In this document: one piece after another, positions 5,921-56,100 of the stretch | How positions within the stretch are numbered: the first letter of the stretch is position 1 | Layout: every line of letters begins with the position of its first letter | Source of the DNA: Polytrichum commune | Taxonomy: Eukaryota; Streptophyta; Polytrichopsida; Polytrichales; Polytrichaceae | Length of the DNA: 64,000 nucleotides | Assembly (NCBI GenBank): GCA_950295325.1 | Contig: OX485809.1 | Coordinates: 18,492,144-18,556,143, forward strand | Reading direction: 5' to 3' | Made by a program: the position numbers and the translations under genes | Notes under the pieces: model-generated | What the model was told of the DNA's origin: nothing | Seen by the model: only the letters and a program-made list of their open reading frames with translations | Databases searched by the model: none

Positions 5921-6973
5921 TTACGAAGAAATCTGGGAAGATTCAATGTCGGTGCCATCTTCAAAGTAAGTTCCTGTCTGCAACCACTCCTCCGAAGTTT
6001 CACTCCACGCCCTGGGCGCCACCCCAAATTTGGTATAACCCCATCTCTCCAACTTCTTAAAGATTTGCGTCTTCTCCAAAGCAGGGTTCCATATCCCACT
6101 CACAATACAATAGTTAACATCATACGGCGGCTTGTGATGTGCGCCATGCATCTTCCGGCTGACCAAAACCCCAGCATCTTGCAAACTAACCACCGCACTT
6201 GGAAGCTGCGACTTCTTCATGTGCGACCACGCATGGAACTGCTGGCTCATCACCACACACCCTAAAAAAGCACCTAAAAACGAATCTGCGAAAGGAGCAC
6301 CCGGAAGAACCAACAGAAAAGGGGTCAAGAATAGCCCCGCAGGGCGAGCCAACGCATGGAGGTTGTTGGCGAATTGCCTCTTCGTGATGGTCCATGGCCT
6401 CTGATGGTGTCCTTGAAACGCATCGATCTGTGAGCCGAAAATTGGTGTATTAGCATCACCATAGTTGTCCACTCCCCAATGGTAAATCCCCGTGGCGAGG
6501 TCGGAGAGGATATAAGCTGACAGAGCTCCAGCTGCCACTTGCAACAATTCTTCGCTTGATTGACAGGACATTACTGCTTTGGCCATCATTCCTGTTACGG
6601 TCGCGGCTCCAAAGGTCACCCACAGGCGGTGTTCCAGGGTAGACTCCAAGTATGTGTCCGAAAGTCCCATAGTGGGAGATGGTTTCTTTAGAATCTCCAC
6701 GGTTTTGAATGTTCGGAGATCGGAAGCATCTGTTGATGTAATCCTGGCGCTTTCGCTTGCCTGAGAGCTCTTGACTTTCGGGTCTACCAATACTGCAACC
6801 ACAACTTTCTTACATTGCTTGATAGAAGAATTGGACATCCGACTCTGCAACTCATGTTTGGTAGAGAAAAAAGTGGTACGCGAAGAAGAGGAGGAGAGGC
6901 GAGACGATGATGAAGGGTAGGAGGTGGAGGGTGATAGATTTGAGGTGCACAATCCTCTCACGGCTGCTGCCAT
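5921..6973 (-). CDS. FAD4: FAD4-type palmitate delta-3-trans desaturase, chloroplast precursor
   Basis: The gene is a single exon of 350 codons; the longer open frame begins at a TTG, and MAAAVRG is the first ATG. Residues 1 to about 75 are rich in Ser, Thr and Arg and low in acid, as in a chloroplast transit peptide. The rest matches the FAD4/TMEM189 (plasmanylethanolamine desaturase-like) family. It shows HWGVDNYGD (about 165-173), FQGHH (about 186-190), QQFHAWSH (about 244-251) and HGAHH (about 276-280), the histidine motifs expected to bind di-iron. The family's known plant role is to introduce the delta-3-trans double bond into the 16:0 chain of chloroplast phosphatidylglycerol. The lack of introns and the complete motif set suggest an intact gene. 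Its upstream side (above 7100) is a degenerate tandem repeat. Confidence 0.93.
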   Translation of the reverse strand: MAAAVRGLCTSNLSPSTSYPSSSSRLSSSSSRTTFFSTKHELQSRMSNSSIKQCKKVVVAVLVDPKVKSSQASESARITSTDASDLRTFKTVEILKKPSPTMGLSDTYLESTLEHRLWVTFGAATVTGMMAKAVMSCQSSEELLQVAAGALSAYILSDLATGIYHWGVDNYGDANTPIFGSQIDAFQGHHQRPWTITKRQFANNLHALARPAGLFLTPFLLVLPGAPFADSFLGAFLGCVVMSQQFHAWSHMKKSQLPSAVVSLQDAGVLVSRKMHGAHHKPPYDVNYCIVSGIWNPALEKTQIFKKLERWGYTKFGVAPRAWSETSEEWLQTGTYFEDGTDIESSQISS

Positions 6974-7099
6974 CTTGAACAAGATTTCAATCAAGTTTTC
7001 TGATCAGTCAGCCGTTGTTGGTTGAATCTGTCTGGAAATTCGTCCTCCCCGTGAAGTAGCGCAATGGTATTCACAAGACTTATGAAAGTCGAATTCTAA

Positions 7100-20467: not shown

Positions 20468-22439
20468 ATCTTGATCACAATGGCGAGCTCGTCTATGAAT
20501 CCGAGTGGGTTTGATGAACATGACCATTTGATCAAGAATGTCGATAATGAGCATTAACTTATAACTTGATTAATATGCAATAGAGGAAAATTTGGATGTT
20601 GTTTCAAATGCATGAACAACATATGAAATGACTTTACTTTATATATGTTATTCATTTTTATGACATTGAAGGTAATAAATTTGGCATTAAGCATTTAATT
20701 TATTTTTTCTCTCATACTCATTATTATTATCCTCATGCCAAGTTGTGGCCAAGTTAAGTTGTATAATAGGCTTTTTGCTGTAGAAACAATCACTGAACTT
20801 GAGTTTAATATTTGACAAAGATAAAATTTCAATCCATCACAAGTTGCAGAAATCCTCAGACATCAATGTCCTCCTTGATATTCAAATTGTTATGGACTAT
20901 GCTAGGCTTGTTGCCACTTTTGGATCATGTAATTGGTGTCTAGGTTTAGACGACCATGTACATCTACCTCCCATATATTTGTAGCCATCAATTAGGTCGT
21001 AGTTCTAGTGGACACAACAAGCTCAAGTGTAGGCTAGTTTAGGATTTTCATAATGAAATCATTCCTTCATTTAAAGCTCATGCCTTTAGACTTTCTATTT
21101 TGCACATTGTTGGCTTTTGCTTGACGTTTTTGTTTTGCCTAATTTGATATTTTCTTTTGTTTCATCTCACATGTTGAAGCTCTCATTATGTTTGGCTTGG
21201 TTCTGTTTATGGTTTTGCTAGCTTTTGGTGTTGTTTCCTTGTGCATTCTTGCAACCACATCTAAGTGTCTTGTTTAATGATTCAAGCTCATAATTGAAGG
21301 CTTCTTATTTTGCTCAATGGTTGCCTTCCACTGGAGGTCTCTTTGCTTGACTTCAGTCAACACACTTGTGTGTAAGTAAACACGTGGACGAGAATTAGAG
21401 AGGTCAATTGGATGACCTAAATTTCCTCTCTTTGAGCATAGTATGGCAAAAGGACAGGCAGGGCCAAGAAACTAGGTTCATTCAATCTCTGTAAACCGAT
21501 GGCGAGGATGTATTTATTGGACAATCAACATTGATTGTCCATTATGCCAACACTTTGCTATGTAGGATAAACTCCATAGGTATTGGCAATGTGAGCAAAC
21601 TCAATGCGTGTGAGTCTTTGCAATCAAATTAGTAAACAAATTGGTTATTATACCTACCACATGGGGATTTTGGCTATAGTTTGAGTTGGCATCACTACAT
21701 TTTTGGAGATAATTTCCCACACAAATTATGGACATTCAACAAAAATGGCATCTTTGTGATGACTTGGATGATTTGGATTGCACGGTGGCACGTCCACCGA
21801 TTGGAACTTCATGCATTGCGCCATGGGTGCAAAACTTAGAAAATAACTATATACAAATGTGAATGTTTTCCATTGGCATGGGTTGGTGCCTCAAACACTT
21901 GCACAAAAGTCAGGGTGCACATGGTCTCATATGCAAGAGAAATGAGAAAAGAGTTATGTGGTCCCTTCGCCAAATGATGTTGGTTCTTGTCCTTGAGGCT
22001 CCTGGGCTTTGGTTCATGTTGCTTTGTCTTTTGTTGTTCTCCAAGTTGCTCTCTGAAACCTAGTTTGGAATCAATGAGTGAGGTGCATTATTCTTTTCCC
22101 AAGGAAATTTTAAAAAATCAATGATCCAAATTTTTGGTTTTGACCAACATGATTGCTTAATTTCATAGTTCCTTAGTCTTAGACCCTACTATAAACCCAC
22201 CCTCATTCCATTACTTAAAATATGTGGGTGTTATTCAATTCGTTTTTCATGTTCTCCAACTTCTACAAGTTATATTTGAACAAATAAACTTGTGTTGTAT
22301 TAGCAAATCTACAATGAAACATCAACACTAATTGGACTAAAAATCGGACCTACCTTGTTCAATTACGGTCATTGGAAGTGCATGCTTTGTTGATTTCTTG
22401 ATTGTATACATAAATATTCCCATTTGTGTTCACTCTTGA
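17371..22439. other. Long gene-free, repeat-rich region
   Basis: I find no supportable gene in this 5 kb. It contains a diverged relative of the 8789 tandem repeat near 17650-17720. Two copies of a dispersed family, called F4 here, lie near 18470-18760 and, partly, 18880-19110 (GTGAAATGAAGGGGAGGC and CTTTTGAAGGCACCTAAA phrases). A (GA)n microsatellite of about 30 bp lies near 20437-20466. The rest is AT-rich unique DNA. Confidence 0.5.
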
Positions 22440-22600
22440 TTGTAACGTAGTCAGCAAAATGTGAAGATGTAGTCCAATCTCTTCCAAACATATATCTTTA
22501 TGGTGCTTGTTCTTTGATCTTCACCTCACCACACACCAATCAACATACAAAGTTTCCGAGTAAGAAAAGTAACCGAATAACACCCGCATACCTGACACTC
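22440..22600. repeat. F1 MITE fragment upstream of the VLRF1 gene
   Basis: It contains GTAGTCCAATCTCTTCCAAA, TGGTGCTTGTTCTTTGATC and AAGTAACCGAATAACACCCG in the order seen in F1 copies. It ends about 160 bp before the VLRF1 start codon, so it lies in the likely 5' region of that gene. Confidence 0.6.
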
Positions 22601-22758
22601 ACAATGCAAATTACACAGAGATGAGATCCATTGCTGCTCGGCCTTCTTCTCACTTACATTCCACGCACAGGAATGAAGGAAATTGAATCTCGTTCGGAGA
22701 GGACACATGATGTTTTGTTGTGCAATTGCAGCCTTTCGCAGCTGTGCAGAGGCTTAGG

Positions 22759-23372
22759 ATGATGATGCTGATGATGGCAATGATGATGCCCCAATTAGCT
22801 ATGGCTGGAAGAATTTGGAGGAAAAACCTGCTGCTGCCTCATCACTCCATGCTTTCACGCTGGGGTTTGGGTTTAGGTTCTGGGATAGGGTTGCCCAGAC
22901 AACACGGGATGATGATGCACATGCATCGAGCCATGGCATCTGGCAAACGAGGAGAGAGAGAGCACAAGGAATTGAGCGTGTTTGAGGAATGGTTGGCTGC
23001 AAATCCCCTCCCAGGAGCCAATTCACATGAGGAAGAGACCATCATAGGGAACGGCCATGCCAAATTGATGCGTCGACATGATGATGATGATGATGATGAG
23101 AAGGAGGAGGGATTGTTAGGTGAGGGTGTGGGGTCTGATGGGATGGAGCTATGGGTGGATTCATTGGGCAGACAACGAAAAATTGCTTCCTCTACATCTG
23201 GGAGGCATGAATTGGGCCATGGTGATGGAATTTGGTCCAGCATTGTGAATAAGAAGAAGCAACAACCGCAATGGAATGGAAAATATTCGTGGCAAGACAC
23301 TGCGAGTGTGTTTTACGAGTGTTTGCGAGTATCTGGACAGATGGTCTGGGATGACAAACACAAGTGCTTCGT

Positions 23373-23415
<43 letters not shown>

Positions 23416-25922
23416 ATCGTCTCGTGATTTTTTTTACCATCTTCTGATTGATGTCTTGTCATTGAGATTGAATCGGATCAGTCGAACGTCGGACGTTTAA
23501 AAAAACCTGCCTTCTCCAGTAACCCCTTAGTAATTTCTTGAAGTTTTTACAATCTTCTGATGTCTTGTAATTGAAACCAGCCAGTCGCATTTCTGAATGG
23601 TTTAGAAATTATGGTTCATCATACAATTCAACCATGGAGTGAATCATGATGCAAAATCTGTGACAATGGGAAATAGACATGCAATGCAGTTCAGATATGG
23701 AGTGTTTTATCGTTACAATGTTGGGCTTCGTGTTGGAGTATTGAGTCATTTCGTTTCGTGGCTTGCCAGGTGAGTAGCAGAGATGGGACCGAGCTACTGA
23801 CATTTGTGCCACCATTATTTCAGCTGCCCAAGCATGCCGCATGCACACCAAGCGAGTACCCTCCCTCCGTCTCCCTCCGTCTCCCTCCGCACTATGTTGT
23901 ATTTCGTGTCTGTTTCCAGAGTTGCTGGTATTTCCAGTAGAGGATTGTTTCGAGTCAGCCATAGGAACTTTTAAAATCATGTTGTCCCATTCTTCGTCCT
24001 TCATCCTTCACATACTCAAACACCCACTTCTAGACTCTGGCAGTAATGAAATCTCCCGCAATTTGGAGGTTTCATGCTTTTGGTTACTTGGATGAGAGGA
24101 CACCCAGTGATTGTGAGCCTGGAAAGTGCAGGTATCTAAATTCATTGCGGCAGAGCCAGGATGTAGGAAACCAGAGTAAACTGCTCCTGGCACTGGTCTC
24201 CAGTAGTGCAGCTGCTTTGGGAATTTTCGAAGACGATTCTCTTGTATTGCACAAGGTCAGTATTTGCTCCCATAAGTAATTTAGGTCTAAATCCTTTTTG
24301 TTCCACTTTTCTGTGCTCCTCCTGTTGCCATGTTGAAAACGGAGTAGTTTTGCACATTTGCTAGCTTTTCAAGAATTGCCTGGAACCAATGCGCACCACA
24401 CTACGTCCGATTTCTTTTGGTGGCAGAACTATAGAGTGCTTTTAATGTTTTTACGCTTTTCCCTTTGTCTCACCCTAGGTCATAACTGCATACACTGTAA
24501 GAGCAAAGCAAGGGAAAGCACAACTTCATTATCTCCGGCAGGGAGGCCCTGGTCGCATGAGTGTTGGTGGTGGCATTCGTGCACGAGAAACTGCACGACT
24601 ATTTTCTCGTATTTGCGAGGTGCTCAACATGTTCATTGATATGAATATCTTCAAATTATTGTGGCCTTGAGCTACAATCTGTTATTTGAACTCAACAAAC
24701 AGAATTATGTGTTCTGGGATTTCTGTTTTAATTAGGCTCCAGTATTCAATGAACACACTCTGAATAAGCTTTGACATGAACACTGTACACCTAGTGAAGA
24801 ATTGCACACACAACTTAACTCCACATTTCAACCAGAACAAATCCAGTGGTTGTGAATGTGTAGCTACTTAAGCACACGTCTCACACTGACAAATTTTTAT
24901 AACTTCATTTGCAGAAATTGGATGAATGGAAAGAGGAGATTGAAAGTTGCAAGTTGCTCTTCTACAGCGGTAATATGCGAGTCTGGAATGAGGTACACGC
25001 TTTTGTAACGTTTGTATTTGCTTTATTTGAAAACTACCCTAAGAAAGTAATTCTTGGACTGCACATCACTGACTCTCGACCATTGCATTTACTCCCTGCT
25101 TTTCTGATTCTCAATAATTATTGCAGGTATATGCATCTAATGATCCAAGGATACCTGTGGCAAGAGATGATGTCCGCTGGCTCAAGGTGCCCTACAGTGT
25201 TCGACAACCACGACTTCGAGAGCTTCAAAGGTGGGTACCAGATTTCTGTTGTCTTGTCCAATGTCGGTCTGGTATATAAGTGATTGCATGGTATCAATAA
25301 TGGTATCAAAAAACCCACTGGTGGGTATCAAAATTTTAATACCAGTCAAATGTTGATATCTGGTGGGCAGGACAAGGTGAGAATATTTGTATACCTGAGT
25401 TATTATTTGGGTCAACACCATTCTGAACCATATTGATACTAAGGTGATTTTACCTAGGTCTGAAGGTTCTTGCATGGTATATGGACCCGAATGGTATTGA
25501 ATACAAAGATACTGTCAAATATCCATACCCTACAGGTATCAAAAAATGTGAAATTCTCATTACAGATACCCGAAGGTATAAAAAGAAAGACGACACCAGT
25601 CCAACACTGGTCTTATTGTAGTAAATTATTGTCATCTCAAGAATACAGTTTACTACTTTCTTTGAATGTTTGCAATTATAGTGACAGAGACACTGATTCT
25701 TGTGGGAATAAAAATGGTTTGGAAGGCCCAATGTAAAAGTTGGACCTAGAACGCTACTCTTTTCTCTCTTTTCGGGGTTCTTGAAAGTCTTCAAATTGTA
25801 TAGCTGTGGATCAGCTTCTTCATTTGCAATAGACTAAACATTGGAGAAACTGACAAGTCTGAATGTGGTGCAGAGTTTATTATGGACTAAGCCATGGAGC
25901 AGTTGGTCGTGGAGTCCCTTGA
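22759..25922 (+). CDS. Stand-alone VLRF1 (Vms1/ANKZF1-type release factor-like) protein, 7 exons
   Basis: Exons: 22759-23376, 23770-23855, 24132-24255, 24479-24619, 24915-24992, 25127-25230 and 25874-25922. All are in phase, giving 399 residues. The longer open frame opens at a GTG, so I start at the first ATG. Residues 1 to about 75 are Met-, Arg- and His-rich with almost no acid, like a mitochondrial or dual-targeting presequence. Residues 236-384 form a VLRF1 domain: ALGIFEDDSLVLHK, YTVRAKQGKAQ with the family's key glutamine at about 291, GGGIRARETARLF, and DPRIPV...VPYSVRQPRLREL. Known VLRF1 proteins (yeast Vms1, ANKZF1) cleave peptidyl-tRNA on stalled 60S subunits. This one lacks their zinc finger, ankyrin repeats and VCP-binding tail, and stops 15 residues after the domain. 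The exon 2 donor (GTACCC) is the weakest junction. Intron 1 starts with a (CT)n run. Confidence 0.75.
23377..23413 (+). repeat. (CT)n microsatellite at the start of VLRF1 intron 1
   Basis: About 18 CT units follow directly after the exon 1 splice donor. Length variation here could influence use of that donor; this is inference. Confidence 0.9.
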
Positions 25923-27700
25923 CCTTGGTATAGATTGATTTTGTCTTATTTGTAAACACAAGGCCATTCTTTCATTATCATTTTGTGGTCTTAGATATTA
26001 AACTTCAAAACCCGGACAAAGGATTGTTTGCTGTTTGCAGTTTGAGGGCAAAAGTTTATTTAGTTAGGTCCTCATTTTGTAATCACCAGACAAACATTAT
26101 TCTTGATGATAGTACTGGATGTGCTTCCATCATTAGGTTAAAGGCCATCTTAGCTACCAAACAGAGATTTTCAAATAAAACCAGACCTTCACTCAAGGTA
26201 CAGGACTTTTCATCAAATCACAGATGAAGCATCACTGCCAAGTTTTGTGATGTGATTAGATTTTTGATTATTCAAAAGTGTGTATGCAATGTTTGTTATT
26301 GTCAAGGTGCATGTCCACAAGATATGTTCAGAACTTCAGAAGATCAAGGCCCTGTGCTTCTTTTAACATGTACAGGCAATGGCAAGGGTTCAAAGCAGAT
26401 CATTATAGTCACTGGCAAATTCTATTCAATATAGAAGGGTCTCAAATAGTTATGTTTTTTATAAGTGCACATCTCCTAGGATATGAAACACATGATTAGC
26501 ACAAGATGATTAGCAAATCCGAATCGAGGCCAGAACCATTTTTCTCATTATTTCTGGAGCTCATATGCTTTATTTATTTGTTATTATAGTGTAATTTCTA
26601 GTGCTCATTAAATGGTCACATAGGTCCCCCCCATTTATGTTGACAATTAAGCCTAAAGTGGTTATCATATTTTAAACACATAGTCCAATCTGCTTCAAAC
26701 ACACATCTCTTTGGTATTTTGTTCTTGGAGCTACACCTAGCAACTTACCACTCAAATAAAGGTGTCAATTCAAATATGGCACTGTATTAGAAATGTCTAC
26801 CTTAGTCTTCATGCATAAAAAATATACATGACACAACAGGTATTTGCATTGGTGATGGAAGTGAATGTCGTTACTAAGTTGCACACAATCTTCGAGTTTT
26901 GCTAGGTACTGTACATCATACTGAACATATTAAGAAGAAAGGATCTGGATATAATTCTTGATAATACAATGTAAAGATTGGAAAGCATCGTAAAGTATGT
27001 GGGTGTTTGGTTATTTTTCTTAATCAGAAACTTATATTAGATTGGTGTGTCTTTAAACAGTATTAACTACTCCACAATCAATTGGGAGGCCCTAATATGT
27101 ACTCAGTCAACCAATCATCAAGCATGCACTTCCAATGACCATAACTAAATCAGGGAGGTCCAAATTTCAATCTAACTTTTGCTTATATCCCCATCATAGA
27201 TTTGCTAATGTAACACACATTTCATTGTATAAATCTAATCGGCGGAACATGAAAAAGGAACCGAATAACACCCACATACCTTTACATTTGATGAAACTCA
27301 CCACTTCAAAAGTTCAGGTCAACAGCTCTGTAGAAATATCTCCAACAGCAAAATATTTATACTTTCTTGACATTAAAGCTCCACATGTCTACAATCATTG
27401 AGCAAGTAGGTCTCAAAATTTCTAGTCACCATGTAGTCCTGGTATGTCCCACCATCATATTTTTGATTTGTTGGAGTCTAATAGGAAATGGATCCCTTCT
27501 ATTACTCTACAATGTACAACCACAGGTCCTCAACTTATATTGAAAGTGATACTTGTTGCCTCCATGTCCGACTTTATTGTTCTTGAAGTACATACCATAA
27601 TACTTGATTTTAGCAGATCCAGGTTTCTCTCAACCTTCGTGATAAACATTCTGGGGTACACCACAAAAAATATGATATCAAAGTTGGACCCATTAAGAGT
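25923..27700. repeat. Convergent intergenic region with F1 MITE pieces
   Basis: This separates the 3' ends of VLRF1 (+) and pyruvate decarboxylase (-). F1 sequence is recognisable at about 26470-26790 (TGCTCATTAAATGGTCACAT, CACATAGTCCAATCTGCTTC) and near 27240-27290 (GGAACCGAATAACACCCACA). No gene is seen. Confidence 0.55.
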
Positions 27701-30700: not shown

Positions 30701-32913
30701 GCCAACTCCTCAAATGCTTTATTTGCCTTTGCCACTCGAATTTTGGGACCGGCTACAAGCACAGGTTTCACACTCTTGTTTAGAATATTGCCAACCACTT
30801 CCACAGCAGCTTCCAGGGACAGTGGGTTTGTCTTCATGTTCCCAATCCCATACAATCTGCACACCATCAAGAGGGAAGAGAGATCCCACATTTAGGGCCA
30901 CTTTAAACTAGAGCTTGAGGGCCCATAACCACTGAAATCTGAAATCTATTCTTGGTGGAAAATGCTTAAGACTGTCCCACATCACTTCACACTCGAGCTT
31001 GAGGGCTCATGACCACTGAATTCTAGATTCTATCAGTGGTGGAAAATGCTTAGACTGTACCACTTCACTTCCCGCTAGAGCTTGAGGGCCCATAACCACT
31101 GAAGTCTAAAATCTATCATTGATGGAAAATGCTTAATCTGTCCCACTTCACTTTCACACTCGAGCCTGAGGACCCATGACCACTGAATTCTAAATTCCAT
31201 CGTTGGTGGAAAATTCTTAGACTGTTTCACTTCACTTCCCACTAGAGCTTGAGGGCCCATGACCACTAGAATCTAAAATCTCTAATTGGTGGAAAATGCT
31301 AATGGATGGAAAAACCTACATGAAGTCCTACATGACAAGTAATGGGTAACATTTTATGGTCTCCCAGATTTTGCGTCAAGCCTGCCTCAAAGAGGTGGGT
31401 GTAACAAAAAACCGACCAGGAGACCGCGATACTTCAAATCAGGTCACTAACCCTTGATTTTTTATTACTTAAAGTGTAGAAGGGGCCCACATGATCAATA
31501 CGACGGTAATAAAAATAGCATCCTCTTGCGAGCCCGGTCACCTATGCCTTTACACTACACTTGAAGGCCCGTCACCACACAAAATTCAATTTCAATCTTC
31601 CATAGTACAGGCTCCAGATGAGTTTCAAGGGCCCATCGACAATTTCATGGTCACAGCCCTTGATAATTCAATGAAACAACATAAGTTGTATCTCCATAAG
31701 TGTGAGGTTGAAACTTCACTGCATTCTCTGCCAGATTTGCACCTGGCGCTTCATGGGTTAATCTACTGTGAATTTGATAACAATCATAGAGTTGCATTTA
31801 TAACTATGACAGAAAGGATTTTAGGCACATTGTGAGAATCACTACCTTCCTGGATCTGGACCCTGGGTGAGGGAGTATGGAAGGGGCGCTGATTTAAAAG
31901 ATGGATGTGGGAGGGAAGGCAAATTGCAGCTGATGCTTATGTACACAGGTTTGCTTTGTGCAATTGCAGTCGAAATTGCTCGGTCGATTAGCTCATGCGC
32001 ATCATCCAAGCTTTGGATCACCACCTTTTGTTCCAAAAACACACTGCCAGATTGTCAGTGTGCAATAGAGTTATTTGTAAAGCAAAGCACATGATACCAT
32101 GGATTTAGTCCCAAACCCTGAGTTTACGCAAATTAACACAAATGTTTGGTGTGCCTCCAAAAACAGATACCCAAAAAGACACATGTTTAAAGGAGATTGG
32201 ACTGAGATGCTCAAAACATGCTAACCATTCTAGGTTCAATAGTCAACAGAATTGGGGGGGACCTATATGATCATTTAATGAGCACGAGAATCTTCACTTT
32301 GATAATGGATACGATATTCATATGAGCTCCAAAAATTATGAGGAAATTGTTTACGGCCTCGATTTGGATTTGCTAATCATCTCACCCTAATCGTGTGTTT
32401 CCTAGCCTAGGAGAAACGGGCTAGTCGGAAACAGGAACCATTTAAGACCCATCTATCTACCTTACATACCTGGCAACAAGTGATTTCCTTGAAGCATCGA
32501 GTTTCTTGACCCCAATCGGGTTCGCCGATCGTGTGATGGAGGATGTGATTGGTTCCAAAATCATTTGAATTCGGCCCACCCGCAATGCAAATGACAGGCA
32601 GATTCTCACTGTACGCGCCCGCAATCGCATTTATCACACTTAAGCCTCCCACTGTGAAGGTGACTGCGCATGCCCCGACGCCATGGGACCGAGCATACCC
32701 GTCCGCCGCGTACCCGGCATTCAATTCATTGCAACATCCGATCAAATTCAGTCCTGGTTCTGCCAACAAATGGTCCAACAGCATCAGATTGAAGTCCCCT
32801 GGAACCGAGAACACATCGTTCACTCCAATCTCCACAAGTCGGGCAGCTAAGTATCGGCCTAACGTCCTCTCGTGGTCTGGCAGTACTTCAGAAGGACTGT
32901 CATTTCCTCCCAT
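27701..32913 (-). CDS. PDC: Pyruvate decarboxylase, 7 exons
   Basis: Exons read leftwards: 32913-32470, 32024-31846, 30856-30527, 29613-29361, 28928-28722, 28527-28339 and 27868-27701. They are in phase throughout, giving 589 residues, close to the normal plant length. The enzyme is cytosolic, uses thiamine diphosphate and Mg, and converts pyruvate to acetaldehyde and CO2 in ethanolic fermentation. Visible hallmarks are the cofactor-activating Glu63 in [15 protein letters not shown], the catalytic His pair in HILHHTIG (126-127), and the metal and diphosphate motif GDGSFQ (466-471) to NNGGYTIE (493-500). The end, SRPPNPQ, is typical of plant enzymes. No transit peptide is evident. The exon 2 acceptor (AAAAG before GTGGTGATC) was chosen by alignment and leaves one residue fewer than usual. 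Introns carry F1 and F2 elements and duplicated sequence. A tandem repeat lies upstream. Confidence 0.96.
27915..28110. mobile_element. F1 MITE arm in PDC intron 6
   Basis: It contains ATATAGGTCCCCCAAATGAT, CACATAGTCCAATCTCTATT, CACACCCAACCACTCACCAC and ATTAGGTCCGCTTACCTTAC. One arm and its terminal repeat are present, and the other half is missing. Confidence 0.65.
28984..29395. repeat. Three ~137-bp units spanning the PDC exon 4 end and intron 4
   Basis: CTGAATGTGT followed by TGAAGA..TTGATAG starts at 29086, 29222 (with a one-base shortening) and 29361. The last is the authentic end of exon 4. Each unit continues into AGCTTACATTCACATG and GTCAACCTCATAGCCAAAAT. Intron 4 therefore holds two diverged copies of the last ~30 bases of exon 4 plus flanking intron. 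The copy at 29086 keeps a GT after the exon-like CAG. Confidence 0.7.
29735..29895. mobile_element. F1 MITE fragment in PDC intron 3
   Basis: It contains ATGAGCTCCGAAAATTATGA, GATTTGGATTTGTTAATCAT and ends in CACACATCTACCTAAG. It is an F1 terminal half with one inverted-repeat end. Confidence 0.65.
30108..30486. mobile_element. F1 MITE, near full length, in PDC intron 3
   Basis: It starts CTTAAGGTAGATAGGTATTA and ends near AAGTAACCGAATAAGGG. The core includes TGCTCATTAAATGGTCATAT, a C-rich run, CACGCAGTCCAATCTC and GTCCGTTCTTGGAGCCACAC. The distal end is degraded and lies about 40 bp from exon 3. Confidence 0.65.
30893..31660. mobile_element. F2 MITE in PDC intron 2, enlarged by an internal tandem array
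   Basis: The left end AGGGCCACTTTAAACTAGAG is an F2 terminus. Its terminal sequence GAGCTTGAGGGCCCAT...CCACTGAA is then repeated at 30911, 30995, 31078, 31162 and 31245, five units of 83-84 bp. Beyond 31310 F2 interior sequence continues (TGGTCTCCCAGATTTTGCGT, AACCCTTGAT) to a mirrored end near 31560-31660. Confidence 0.65.
32150..32466. mobile_element. F1 MITE filling PDC intron 1
   Basis: Near full-length F1 copy: CCAAAAAGACACATG, GGAGATTGGACTGAGATGCT, ACCATTCTAGGTTCAATAGT, TTGGATTTGCTAATCATCTC and the terminal CCATCTATCTACCTTA. The terminal TAAGGTAGAT on the gene strand begins only four bases inside the intron after the donor GT, so the element abuts the exon 1 splice site. Confidence 0.75.
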
Positions 32914-33149
32914 TTCTTCAGCAGCAGCAGCAGCAGCAACAGCAACTCAGTTCTGTGGGCAGAAAAAAAACACACAGCTTAAGTTTTTCATTATTTATAG
33001 TTTTTCGAGATAAATGAAACAAGTTCATTGCTTTTTGCTTTTAAAAAAAACTTAAACGGCCCACCAGCGGCCGGCAAAAAGAGAGCAGCCCGAAACTTTC
33101 TAGGATGCGGCCTAGTGGAACCACATAATTTGCAGACAACTGAAACAAA

Positions 33150-52850: not shown

Positions 52851-53185
52851 GAGAGGTTGAGAGCTTGTGACCTTGCTTCCTTCCTTCTCCCACTCTCACT
52901 TCTTCCAGTTCCTAGTTTCGAAGTATTTCGAAATACCTACTGGACTGCCACAAGCAGATATCAAATTTTTGCTGGCATATTAAGTCAGGCAGTCAGGATT
53001 CATGTCCACTTCGTTGAAATTGCTGCCTTTCGAGGTTGTGGATGTGCAATGACTGTTATAGGTTGTATAGGAAGAGTTTTGTGAATTGCAAGTGCAGTAG
53101 GGTTGGGAAAATTGGATAGTGCGAAAGGGGGGACGATGCTTATGATGAAAATGCATGTCATTAGGGTTTAAGAGCATCTGTCACA

Positions 53186-56100
53186 ATGAGGACGAGATCG
53201 GCGGGTCCGCTCGCCGACCCCGCCGAACTTAAAGTGGCACGGCGGAGCACTCGAAAATCTGCGGAGACGGCAGGACGCAAGAGACAACAGCCGCAACAAC
53301 AGCCAACAACAACGAGGGAAGAAGAGGAACAGGTGCAGACTCCCTCTGACGAACAACCTAAATCCGTGGATGAACCTGAGACAACATCGGTAGAGATTCC
53401 ATTGCCACTTGAAGGAGGAGAAGAGGAACAGCCTCAATCTCAATCTCCTCCAACTCAGGCTAGCCCTAATCCTGCTGTTTGTAATGACACAGTTTTCCAA
53501 ACTGTGTCAGAAGTTGGAGAGCCTCAATCTGCTCCTCAGACTGAGATAGCAACAACTTCTGAGGAGTCGTCAGCTCCAGAAGTGGATCCACCATTGGAGC
53601 CTAATTCTGTTGCCGTGGCTTCTGAGGAGCCACCTGTTCAGTTTGTTGACATTACCAAAGCAGAGGCATTGAAGTTAGTGGCAAATGCAGAGCCTACTTC
53701 ATGGTTATCTGCGTCCCCGGGATTGGTTCAGCACGCACGGGCAGCGTCCGAGTATCTGTTCAACATTCTTGCACTGCAGACAGAGTCACCATTGGATAAG
53801 CTGTTTACGGAGGGGTTTGACTCCGAGCAGATATGGCAGCAAATTGATTTACAAGCCACTCCAACTCTTGCAAAAATTAAGAAACTTGTTCGCCGTGTAG
53901 AAAAGACACCTGCAGAACAGTTTTTCCCAGCAAAACGTGAGGAATTGAAGCGGAGCAGGCCTGCGAAACAACAGGCACAAACTGATGAAGAAATTGAAGA
54001 GGAAGTTGTGGATTTTGAGAATGGAGATGATATATCCGGCTCGGAGGACGATGATGATGAAGACGTTGAAGAGAAGGAAGGTGGCGAGTCTGAGGAGTAT
54101 TCTGATTATGATGAAGGTCATATTGCAATCCTACTTCTTTCCTATGCAATCAACGATGTCTAATATTTAGAAGTTCACTTTTCCTTATTTGCATTGTCAT
54201 TATTTTAGAGTTATCCATTCTCATGTGGAGTTTGAAGTTACTGACGTAGTATTTTGATGGTCCTCTCTGCAGAAGAAAAGAAAGGGGTGGAGGACAAGTT
54301 TTTGAAGTTAACTGATATGGAGAAGTTTTTAGACCGAGCTGATGCAGAAGATGCAGGCCTCGACTTTGAAGGCAGTGATGACGAAGATGATGAAGATGAC
54401 GATGCTGAAGGTGATGAAGAGGACTTGGAGGTACTTGTTTCAGCATTGTTTTGTTTTATAGTTCAATCTCATAGTTAAGAATCAAGTGTCAAATGCCTTT
54501 ATCTAGGAGGTAGTTCTGTATGTCTTGAGGTGGAATGGACTGCCATCTGGTTACAGTTCATTTGTAGCCATATCATGTTATCTTAGTCCTAGGTTTTCAT
54601 AATATTAATTGCAAATACACTTGGGAAATTATTATCTGTTGCTTCTACTTCTTTCTTACTCCATAGTTGTTTTATTGGTTCAGATGGATGAAGCTTTCGA
54701 TTTCTCTGCAAAAAGGGTGGATGGTGGGAAAGATGAGAACGCATGGGGACCCAAGTACATAAATTTTTCCCTTCCCTATACCACATGGATGAGTTCTGAC
54801 CAATCTTTTTAGAGGATTTGCATTTCATGTTGAGCATATGTTGCAATCACTTTGTAAATGTCAGTATCAGCTTTGGTGAAGATGCACCACATCTGCATGG
54901 AAAGGAACAAGAGGTTATATGTGTCTGTCAGATAACTGATGGCAATCTCCAAATTTTCAGGTACTCGGAATTTGTGGGCAAACCAAAGAAGCAAAAGCCC
55001 AAACCTTCTAAAATACATCGTACTGAAGTTGAAGAGTTGTCAGAGATGGATACACTTGAAGAAGATGAAGATGGAGGAGACAGTGAAATGGAGACAGAGG
55101 ATATGGATGTTGATTCAAAGCTTAAAGTTATGGAGGTATTTACAATCTCACAATTTGCCCATAGACTTTCAGACTGCCCAGCATGTCCTTTCCATCTTTG
55201 ATGGTTGTAGGATTTATATATATATTGGTCATCTGCTTTTGGATCGCTCAGGTGATTCATATAACATTCAACACAATGTTTTCAAATTTATGTTTTATTT
55301 ATTCTGAGGCTAAATTAATCTCATTTTAGCATGTTGGTGGTTGATGGATATCGGTTTGGCAGGAGACAAATTTATCTGCACATGAGAAACAGCAAGGGAA
55401 GGTGAAGAAGAGGATTGAACAGTTAGAAAAAGCTAATATGGATACAAAATCCTGGACAATGCAAGGCGAGGTATACTCTTCTATCCTAAAAAAGAAAATC
55501 AACATAAATGGAAAATGTGCCATTTCAATGAGTACATTGAGTTACCTAACATGAATGCTCTAGAGTGTCCGTCATAAATTACACATGTATAAATTACTTT
55601 TGAAGTCTGCTCACTTTTGTCATGAATACCCTAGCTCTGTTCAGCATCTTCCATTCTTCCATGCGTTTCTCCTGAAGTTGTTGAACTGCAACCTTGTGGT
55701 TTTGTGGAAGAAACTGTTCTAAATGTTTGTTACTTATTATGAAACTGAGTATTTGTTCATGTGTATTTCCAGGTGACTGCATCAAAAAGGCCAAAAAATA
55801 GTGCTCTAGAGGTGGAGCTTGATTTTGAGCATGGTGCTCGCCCAGCTCCTGTAGTCACTGAAGAGATTACACAATCTATAGAAGAAATGATTAGGCTACG
55901 AATCATTGAGGTGAGTGAGGATTCCATGATTACTCAGAGGAGCACTTTAGTCTTCTTACATAGGCCTTTAGGTTTATTAGCGCAACAATTTCAACTGTTT
56001 CTATCAAATGACCACTTGTATTGAAATTTCAACTGATAACCATTAAATCACACATTTCAAAGCTCGCAAATTTTTTTGATCAGGTTGTAAAATGATCTTT

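Follow-up and report, generated by a model that had tools for sequence, protein, structure and literature searches.

What is a release-factor domain of bacterial type doing in a nuclear gene of a moss? The question is raised by a stretch of 64,000 nucleotides from Polytrichum commune (the window: contig OX485809.1, positions 18,492,144 to 18,556,143), in which an earlier note, made from the letters alone, had proposed a gene for a minimal, organelle-targeted VLRF1 protein at 22759-25922. Yeast Vms1 and human ANKZF1, which carry the eukaryotic form of the domain (eVLRF1), serve ribosome-associated quality control (RQC) as release factor and tRNA endonuclease. On balance, we lean toward reading the moss gene as a bacterial-type release factor (bVLRF1) of the Vms1/ANKZF1 superfamily, with an extension at the N-terminus by which it is most likely brought into an organelle, mitochondria sooner than plastids, where it would act on stalled organellar ribosomes. 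The gene model, the family, the catalytic residues, the colinearity with whole bacterial proteins, and the fold of a close relative are matters of direct observation.

The family is the firmest ground. Against Pfam, the protein of 399 amino acids (aa) matched bVLRF1 (PF18826) over aa 254-390 with an E-value of 1.7e-24 (86.9 bits; cut-off 27), so the profile search that the earlier note had called for came out in its favor, and no other Pfam family was matched up to E 1. (The family baeRF_family10 was weakly matched by 2 of the 20 rows of alignment A3; the plant protein matches bVLRF1 only.) A phmmer search of the Protein Data Bank (PDB) with the plant protein found three Vms1 sequences (E 0.006-0.011) and two unrelated ones (0.76 and 1.7), and a profile built from the plant core and 19 prokaryote relatives found, up to E 10, three distinct sequences, all Vms1, at about 1e-16.

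The catalytic loop reads Y281-T-V-R284-A-K-Q-G288-K-A-Q291, and the key Gln that had been seen within GKAQ is indeed there, as Q291 (24521-24523). Y281, R284, G288, and Q291 align with Y285, R288, G292, and Q295 of yeast Vms1, all four being kept. Changes of R288, G292, or Q295 in Vms1 lead to strong loss of function, while Y285A has a partial effect (PMC5989216). In the alignment of the plant core with the 19 relatives, seven columns are invariant, among them the catalytic Y, R, G, and Q, an invariance partly built in, as 14 of the 19 came from a contig scan whose patterns cover the motif. More widely, Y..R...G..Q is found in 80 of 95 relatives and Y..R..G..Q in 14 more, with neither in L094 (the duplicates L082 and L083 and the locus L099, which has no usable frame, are left out), but these counts are biased, the patterns behind the first 80 loci having been modeled on the motif itself. 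Only the 15 loci of a whole-protein search are free of the bias, and 14 of them keep G..Q in a loop one residue shorter. Homology and the conserved catalytic residues thus make a role in release or rescue the most likely one.

Where are the nearest relatives? A contig collection of 84,980 species (by its own description) was scanned with three aligned sequences as the query: the plant domain, a fragment of Vms1, and a made-up variant. Among the 200 stretches matched, 152 code for relatives, and the best 80 of these were retained; an earlier scan of contigs with the plant protein alone had found no relatives. Among the best 80 of the 152, the closest is L002, from a metagenome-assembled genome of Planctomycetota (48% identity in the best segment, within the domain), followed by L003, from Candidatus Uabimicrobium amorphum (46% in the domain). 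Over a longer core, aa 176-392 of the plant protein, L002 is 44% identical and L003 41%; identity to the Vms1 domain fragment is 24%. The two bacteria belong to the same class, in which 2 of 6 genomes have the gene, and in the Planctomycetota as a whole a match to the plant query at E 1e-5 was found in 18 of 392. Both proteins have the same R-x-KQG-x-x-Q loop and end at nearly the same place as the plant protein, but they do not have its 168-aa N-terminal extension. Bacterial proteins of 220-222 aa can be aligned with the plant protein over almost their whole length, weakly toward the N-terminus. The plant protein shares the standalone architecture of bVLRF1 proteins (an N-terminal region and the VLRF1 domain, with no accessory domains), apart from the further 168 aa in front, and it looks like a complete bacterial-type bVLRF1 (about 230 aa) behind an extension of about 168 aa.

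No relative was confirmed in three scans of IMG/VR or among phages, and a scan of plasmids matched a single ParB protein (E 8), regarded as chance. Nor was a shared neighbor apparent, by eye and unscored, in the open frames around L002, L003, L004, L007, L008, and L013. Near the VLRF1 gene of L002 lies an open frame (783-1547) that, by eye, resembles a tRNA-His guanylyltransferase (Thg1). Literature searches turned up no functional study of the VLRF1 proteins of the Uabimicrobium class. Ca. Uabimicrobium amorphum itself is described as a bacterium that engulfs other bacterial cells (PMC11032199).

The gene model is sound in its outline and uneven in its support. Joining the seven exons (Table 1) gives a single open frame on the + strand, reproducing exactly the start and stop of the earlier note. 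All six introns have GT-AG borders, an in-frame TGA (22708-22710) precedes the first Met, and the G+C fraction is 0.41-0.53 in exons as against 0.36-0.47 in introns. From aa 169 on, identities exon by exon are 8/37, 5/20, 18/37, 24/45, 12/26, 13/33, and 7/16 to L002 and 7/33, 4/26, 14/38, 24/45, 12/26, 13/33, and 4/13 to L003. By homology, exons 3 to 6 appear well supported, while the end of exon 1 and exons 2 and 7 are more weakly so, aided by the local match over aa 176-392. A chance open reading frame was rejected on the Pfam match and the matches to bacterial proteins. Directly behind the donor of exon 1 lies a (TC)17 microsatellite (23378-23412), and the donor thus reads GTCTCT.

For the fold, L002 was modeled with AlphaFold2 as a stand-in for the plant protein (pLDDT 85.7, pTM 0.77). 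In a Foldseek search with this model, the best four matches were Vms1 chains, the first of them bound to the 60S subunit (6r84_R, E 6e-9, TMq 0.55), followed by chains of eRF1. Further down the ranking were PilM (rank 14), of actin-like fold, and Balon (rank 20), each with an E-value near 1e-3. The structural comparison with Vms1 that had been suggested therefore holds for the relative's model. Like Vms1 and ANKZF1, then, the protein would have a VLRF1 domain of eRF1-like fold, with the equivalents of R288, G292, and Q295 in place.

It differs from them in what surrounds that domain, which in eVLRF1 proteins is joined by a Rei1-type C2H2 zinc finger, ankyrin repeats, VTC, and VIM. The earlier note had the protein lacking the zinc finger, the ankyrin repeats, and the VCP-binding tail, and a scan of the 399 aa for C2H2, ankyrin, and strict VIM patterns indeed turned up none; one relaxed VIM-like string is regarded as chance. 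Further exons carrying the missing domains are disfavored, because a pattern scan for C2H2 and ankyrin found neither in + strand open frames within 12 kb on either side and because the stop lies near the ends of L002 and L003. The description of the protein as a minimal VLRF1 is apt insofar as the accessory patterns are absent, but it looks less like a cut-down Vms1 than like a full-length bacterial-type bVLRF1 to which an extension has been added. According to PMC6514570, zinc finger, ankyrin repeats, and VIM are tied to binding of the cytosolic ribosome and Cdc48, and plants and several other eukaryotes descend from an ancestor with a multi-domain eVLRF-1; a plant copy of bacterial type goes unmentioned in the family section of that paper.

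Trees were built of 50, 43, and 42 rows, drawn from 97 prokaryote proteins, the plant protein, and Vms1, with near-duplicates thinned and odd rows dropped. The plant protein groups with L002 and L003 in the quick tree of 50 rows (support 96), in the careful tree of 43 rows (99/95), and in the tree without Vms1 (98/95). The other ten Planctomycetota rows form a group of their own in the 43-row tree (100/98). They come from the set of loci in which the catalytic loop is one residue shorter than the plant's (14 of 15); this shorter loop, in Planctomycetota outside the Uabimicrobium class (L084-L098), is a possible clade marker. As a test of origin the trees are weak, their only eukaryote besides the plant being a Vms1 fragment of 118 residues whose branch is very long.

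Several observations weigh against our reading of the gene as an imported bacterial-type release factor. None of the five PDB sequences matched by the plant protein up to E 10 is a plant chain. After GKAQ the loop reads GGPGRMSVGGGIR in the plant and KGKSR--AGSRIR in bacteria; the plant loop is two residues longer and has Pro at a position where Lys is near-invariant in the relatives. The N-terminus earns the name presequence-like by its composition (aa 1-65 have no D or E, 6 R, 2 K, and 4 S+T, for a net charge of +8), and the chance of finding no acidic residue there is about 0.001, given the acidic content of the core and residues drawn independently. It does not earn it by an amphipathic helix, the maximal hydrophobic moment being reached by 321 of 500 shuffles, and the Met runs lie, by eye, on an ATG repeat in the DNA; together with the HDDDDDD stretch, they seem to be a single ATG/GAT microsatellite read in different frames. 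Perhaps, then, the same bacterial-type factor works in the cytosol or nucleus, on the 60S subunit as a backup to Vms1, its N-terminus a low-complexity tail. The long acidic linker would suit such a protein, and the yeast Vms1 construct used in release assays, residues 1-417, stops behind the release-factor domain (PMC5989216). We consider this rather unlikely, though to be taken seriously, as the protein has none of the zinc finger, ankyrin, or strict VIM patterns of the parts for binding the cytosolic ribosome and Cdc48, and a tail of 65 residues would so rarely be free of D and E. Composition makes organelle targeting plausible. If the protein is imported, the low content of Ser and Thr (4 of 65, compared with 23 of 65 at the start of a Lipid_desat open frame in the same window) leans toward mitochondria rather than plastids. 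A different doubt concerns the chemistry: the protein might be an eRF1-fold factor that serves ribosome hibernation or protects tRNA without catalysis, after the manner of Balon, two chains of which are matched by the L002 model (8v9l_z at rank 20, 8v9k_z at rank 39). Balon and baeRF-1 share the eRF1 superfamily fold, a weak structural match to the L002 model, but they are of another family, with a role in hibernation. Since Vms1 and eRF1 match better and all four residues of the catalytic loop are kept, we think this very improbable.

The trees also leave room for a different origin. Forcing the plant protein together with the Vms1 fragment costs 3.5 log units (p 0.218 in the approximately unbiased [AU] test of the 43-row tree), and forcing it together with two Asgard archaea costs 22 units (AU p 0.086, no rejection at 0.05); of the three placements tested, only that with Bernardetia-type Bacteroidota was rejected (p 0.002). 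The first two results would be compatible with a secondarily reduced eVLRF1 copy, a Vms1 that has lost its accessory domains, and so would the motif YT, common to the plant protein and Vms1 where the bacterial rows displayed have YM. Yet the domain is 46-48% identical to the two Uabimicrobium-class proteins and only 24% to the Vms1 fragment, and the local match spans nearly the whole of the bacterial proteins, which stop at nearly the same place. When the Vms1 fragment was run by phmmer against 98 rows (two of them duplicates), the plant protein ranked 42nd of 91 matching rows (20 bits) and L002 second (39.5 bits); from its mid-table rank, the plant protein is neither more nor clearly less like Vms1 than the prokaryote rows are. 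A reduced Vms1 is therefore disfavored, with a small probability in our estimation. Origin of the plant gene from bacteria is favored over origin from Vms1, and only favored, because the sole other eukaryote in the tree is a long-branch fragment. As for the Uabimicrobium lineage, it could have given the gene, received it, or simply be the closest kin among those sampled. Finally, the plant row has a long end branch (1.85-2.0), as might a recent bacterial acquisition or a decaying gene, unexpressed or without function. With six GT-AG introns, a frame open through seven exons, intact catalytic residues, and exons richer in G+C than introns over the ranges given above, such a gene would be most surprising here.

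How would the bacterial-type factor act, if it reaches an organelle? The import, ribosome binding, chemistry, and partners of the plant protein we infer as follows. A stalled organellar ribosome would first be split, the VLRF1 domain would then bind the large subunit still holding peptidyl-tRNA, and, by analogy with Vms1 and ANKZF1, the tRNA would be cut at its CCA end or close to it, with no stop codon being read. Mitochondrial ICT1 and C12orf65 (Pth3 in yeast) are comparable in the job, release on stalled organellar ribosomes, that we propose for the plant protein; they differ in fold and motif, having a GGQ domain of RF1/2 type.

One might go further and suppose that plants took from, or shared with, relatives of Uabimicrobium a whole bacterial VLRF1 gene and added an organelle presequence, and that the product is the dedicated release factor of a bacterial-style RQC in mitochondria or plastids, downstream of splitters of MutS2 type, just as in bacteria it would be the termination factor still lacking for RqcH-dependent quality control. 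We offer this as conjecture, more likely wrong than right by a good way. Two further observations count for the main reading itself. Plants do have plastid-targeted MutS2A and MutS2B, homologs of the bacterial ribosome splitter (PMC12292046). The family NFACT_N (PF05833, of RqcH/NEMF type) is found in 139 of 392 Planctomycetota genomes, and in 16 of the 18 with bVLRF1 (not G165 or G241) as against 123 of the 374 others (Fisher p 2.5e-6), where presence of bVLRF1 means a match to the plant query, which may miss divergent copies. It is likewise found in 27 of the 34 genomes searched among those of the best 80 of 152 relatives. To the points on the other side must be added that in the class of G271 NFACT is present in 27 of 29 genomes and bVLRF1 in one, and that in the class of G124 NFACT is present in 13 of 17, with two bVLRF1 genomes, one of them without NFACT. 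At these frequencies of bVLRF1 (1 of 29 and 2 of 17), a comparison within classes has no power. In Bacteroidota all five bVLRF1 genomes (of 296) have NFACT, which says little since NFACT is common there anyway (220 of 296). The association in Planctomycetota is structured by clade and suggestive only. Burroughs and Aravind describe bacterial and archaeal VLRF-1 proteins as independent of other RQC parts (PMC6514570). A dedicated release factor is also not strictly needed, because Pth of B. subtilis is reported to be able to release RqcH-tailed chains.

Table 1. Parts of the VLRF1 gene of Polytrichum commune, in window positions.
Feature	Position	Strand	Content
Exon 1	22759..23376	+	aa 1-206; the N-terminal extension, then the first part of the N-terminal region of bVLRF1
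aa 1-65	22759..22953	+	rich in Met and Arg, net +8, lacking D and E; composition like that of a presequence
aa 66-168	22954..23262	+	acidic linker including HDDDDDDEKEE; precedes the part alignable with bacterial proteins
Exon 2	23770..23855	+	aa 207-235; weak homology
Exon 3	24132..24255	+	aa 235-276; Pfam bVLRF1 match starts at aa 254 (24187)
Exon 4	24479..24619	+	aa 277-323; carries the catalytic loop YTVRAKQGKAQ
Codons Y281-Q291	24491..24523	+	Y281, R284, G288, Q291 correspond to Vms1 Y285, R288, G292, Q295
Exon 5	24915..24992	+	aa 324-349
Exon 6	25127..25230	+	aa 350-384
Exon 7	25874..25922	+	aa 384-399 and stop TGA, at most a few residues away from the L002 and L003 ends

By its neighbors and its intron structure, the VLRF1 gene is a plant-like nuclear gene. 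On the - strand are the Lipid_desat open frame (5924-7003), with a Ser-rich, plastid-like N-terminus, presumably FAD4/Kua-like, and an open frame with TPP_enzyme_N (32410-32946), matched best in the PDB by ANC27 (5npu) and by pyruvate decarboxylases, 2vbi among them; on the + strand, an open frame (53165-54160) carries the first part of a match to Mpp10. Closer by, two related elements resembling miniature inverted-repeat transposable elements flank the gene at 22221-22593 and about 26996-27281, in opposite orientation to each other, with ends like TATGTGGGTGTTATTC and CCGAATAACACCCACATA; the left end of the second was set by eye.

How new is such a protein? Literature searches by title and the start of the abstract, with most subscription papers outside their coverage, found no plant organellar VLRF1. 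The Pfam domain is already known from plants, since a table in a paper on soybean NLR proteins lists a bVLRF1 domain (PMC10934728), and a plant family of bacterial-type VLRF1 may be present, unnamed, in plant protein databases. An intact bacterial-type VLRF1 behind an import-like leader in a plant nuclear gene is a testable candidate, and, if the origin favored here is true, it would represent a second eukaryotic VLRF1 lineage, apart from cytosolic Vms1 and beside the class of a bacterium that engulfs bacteria.

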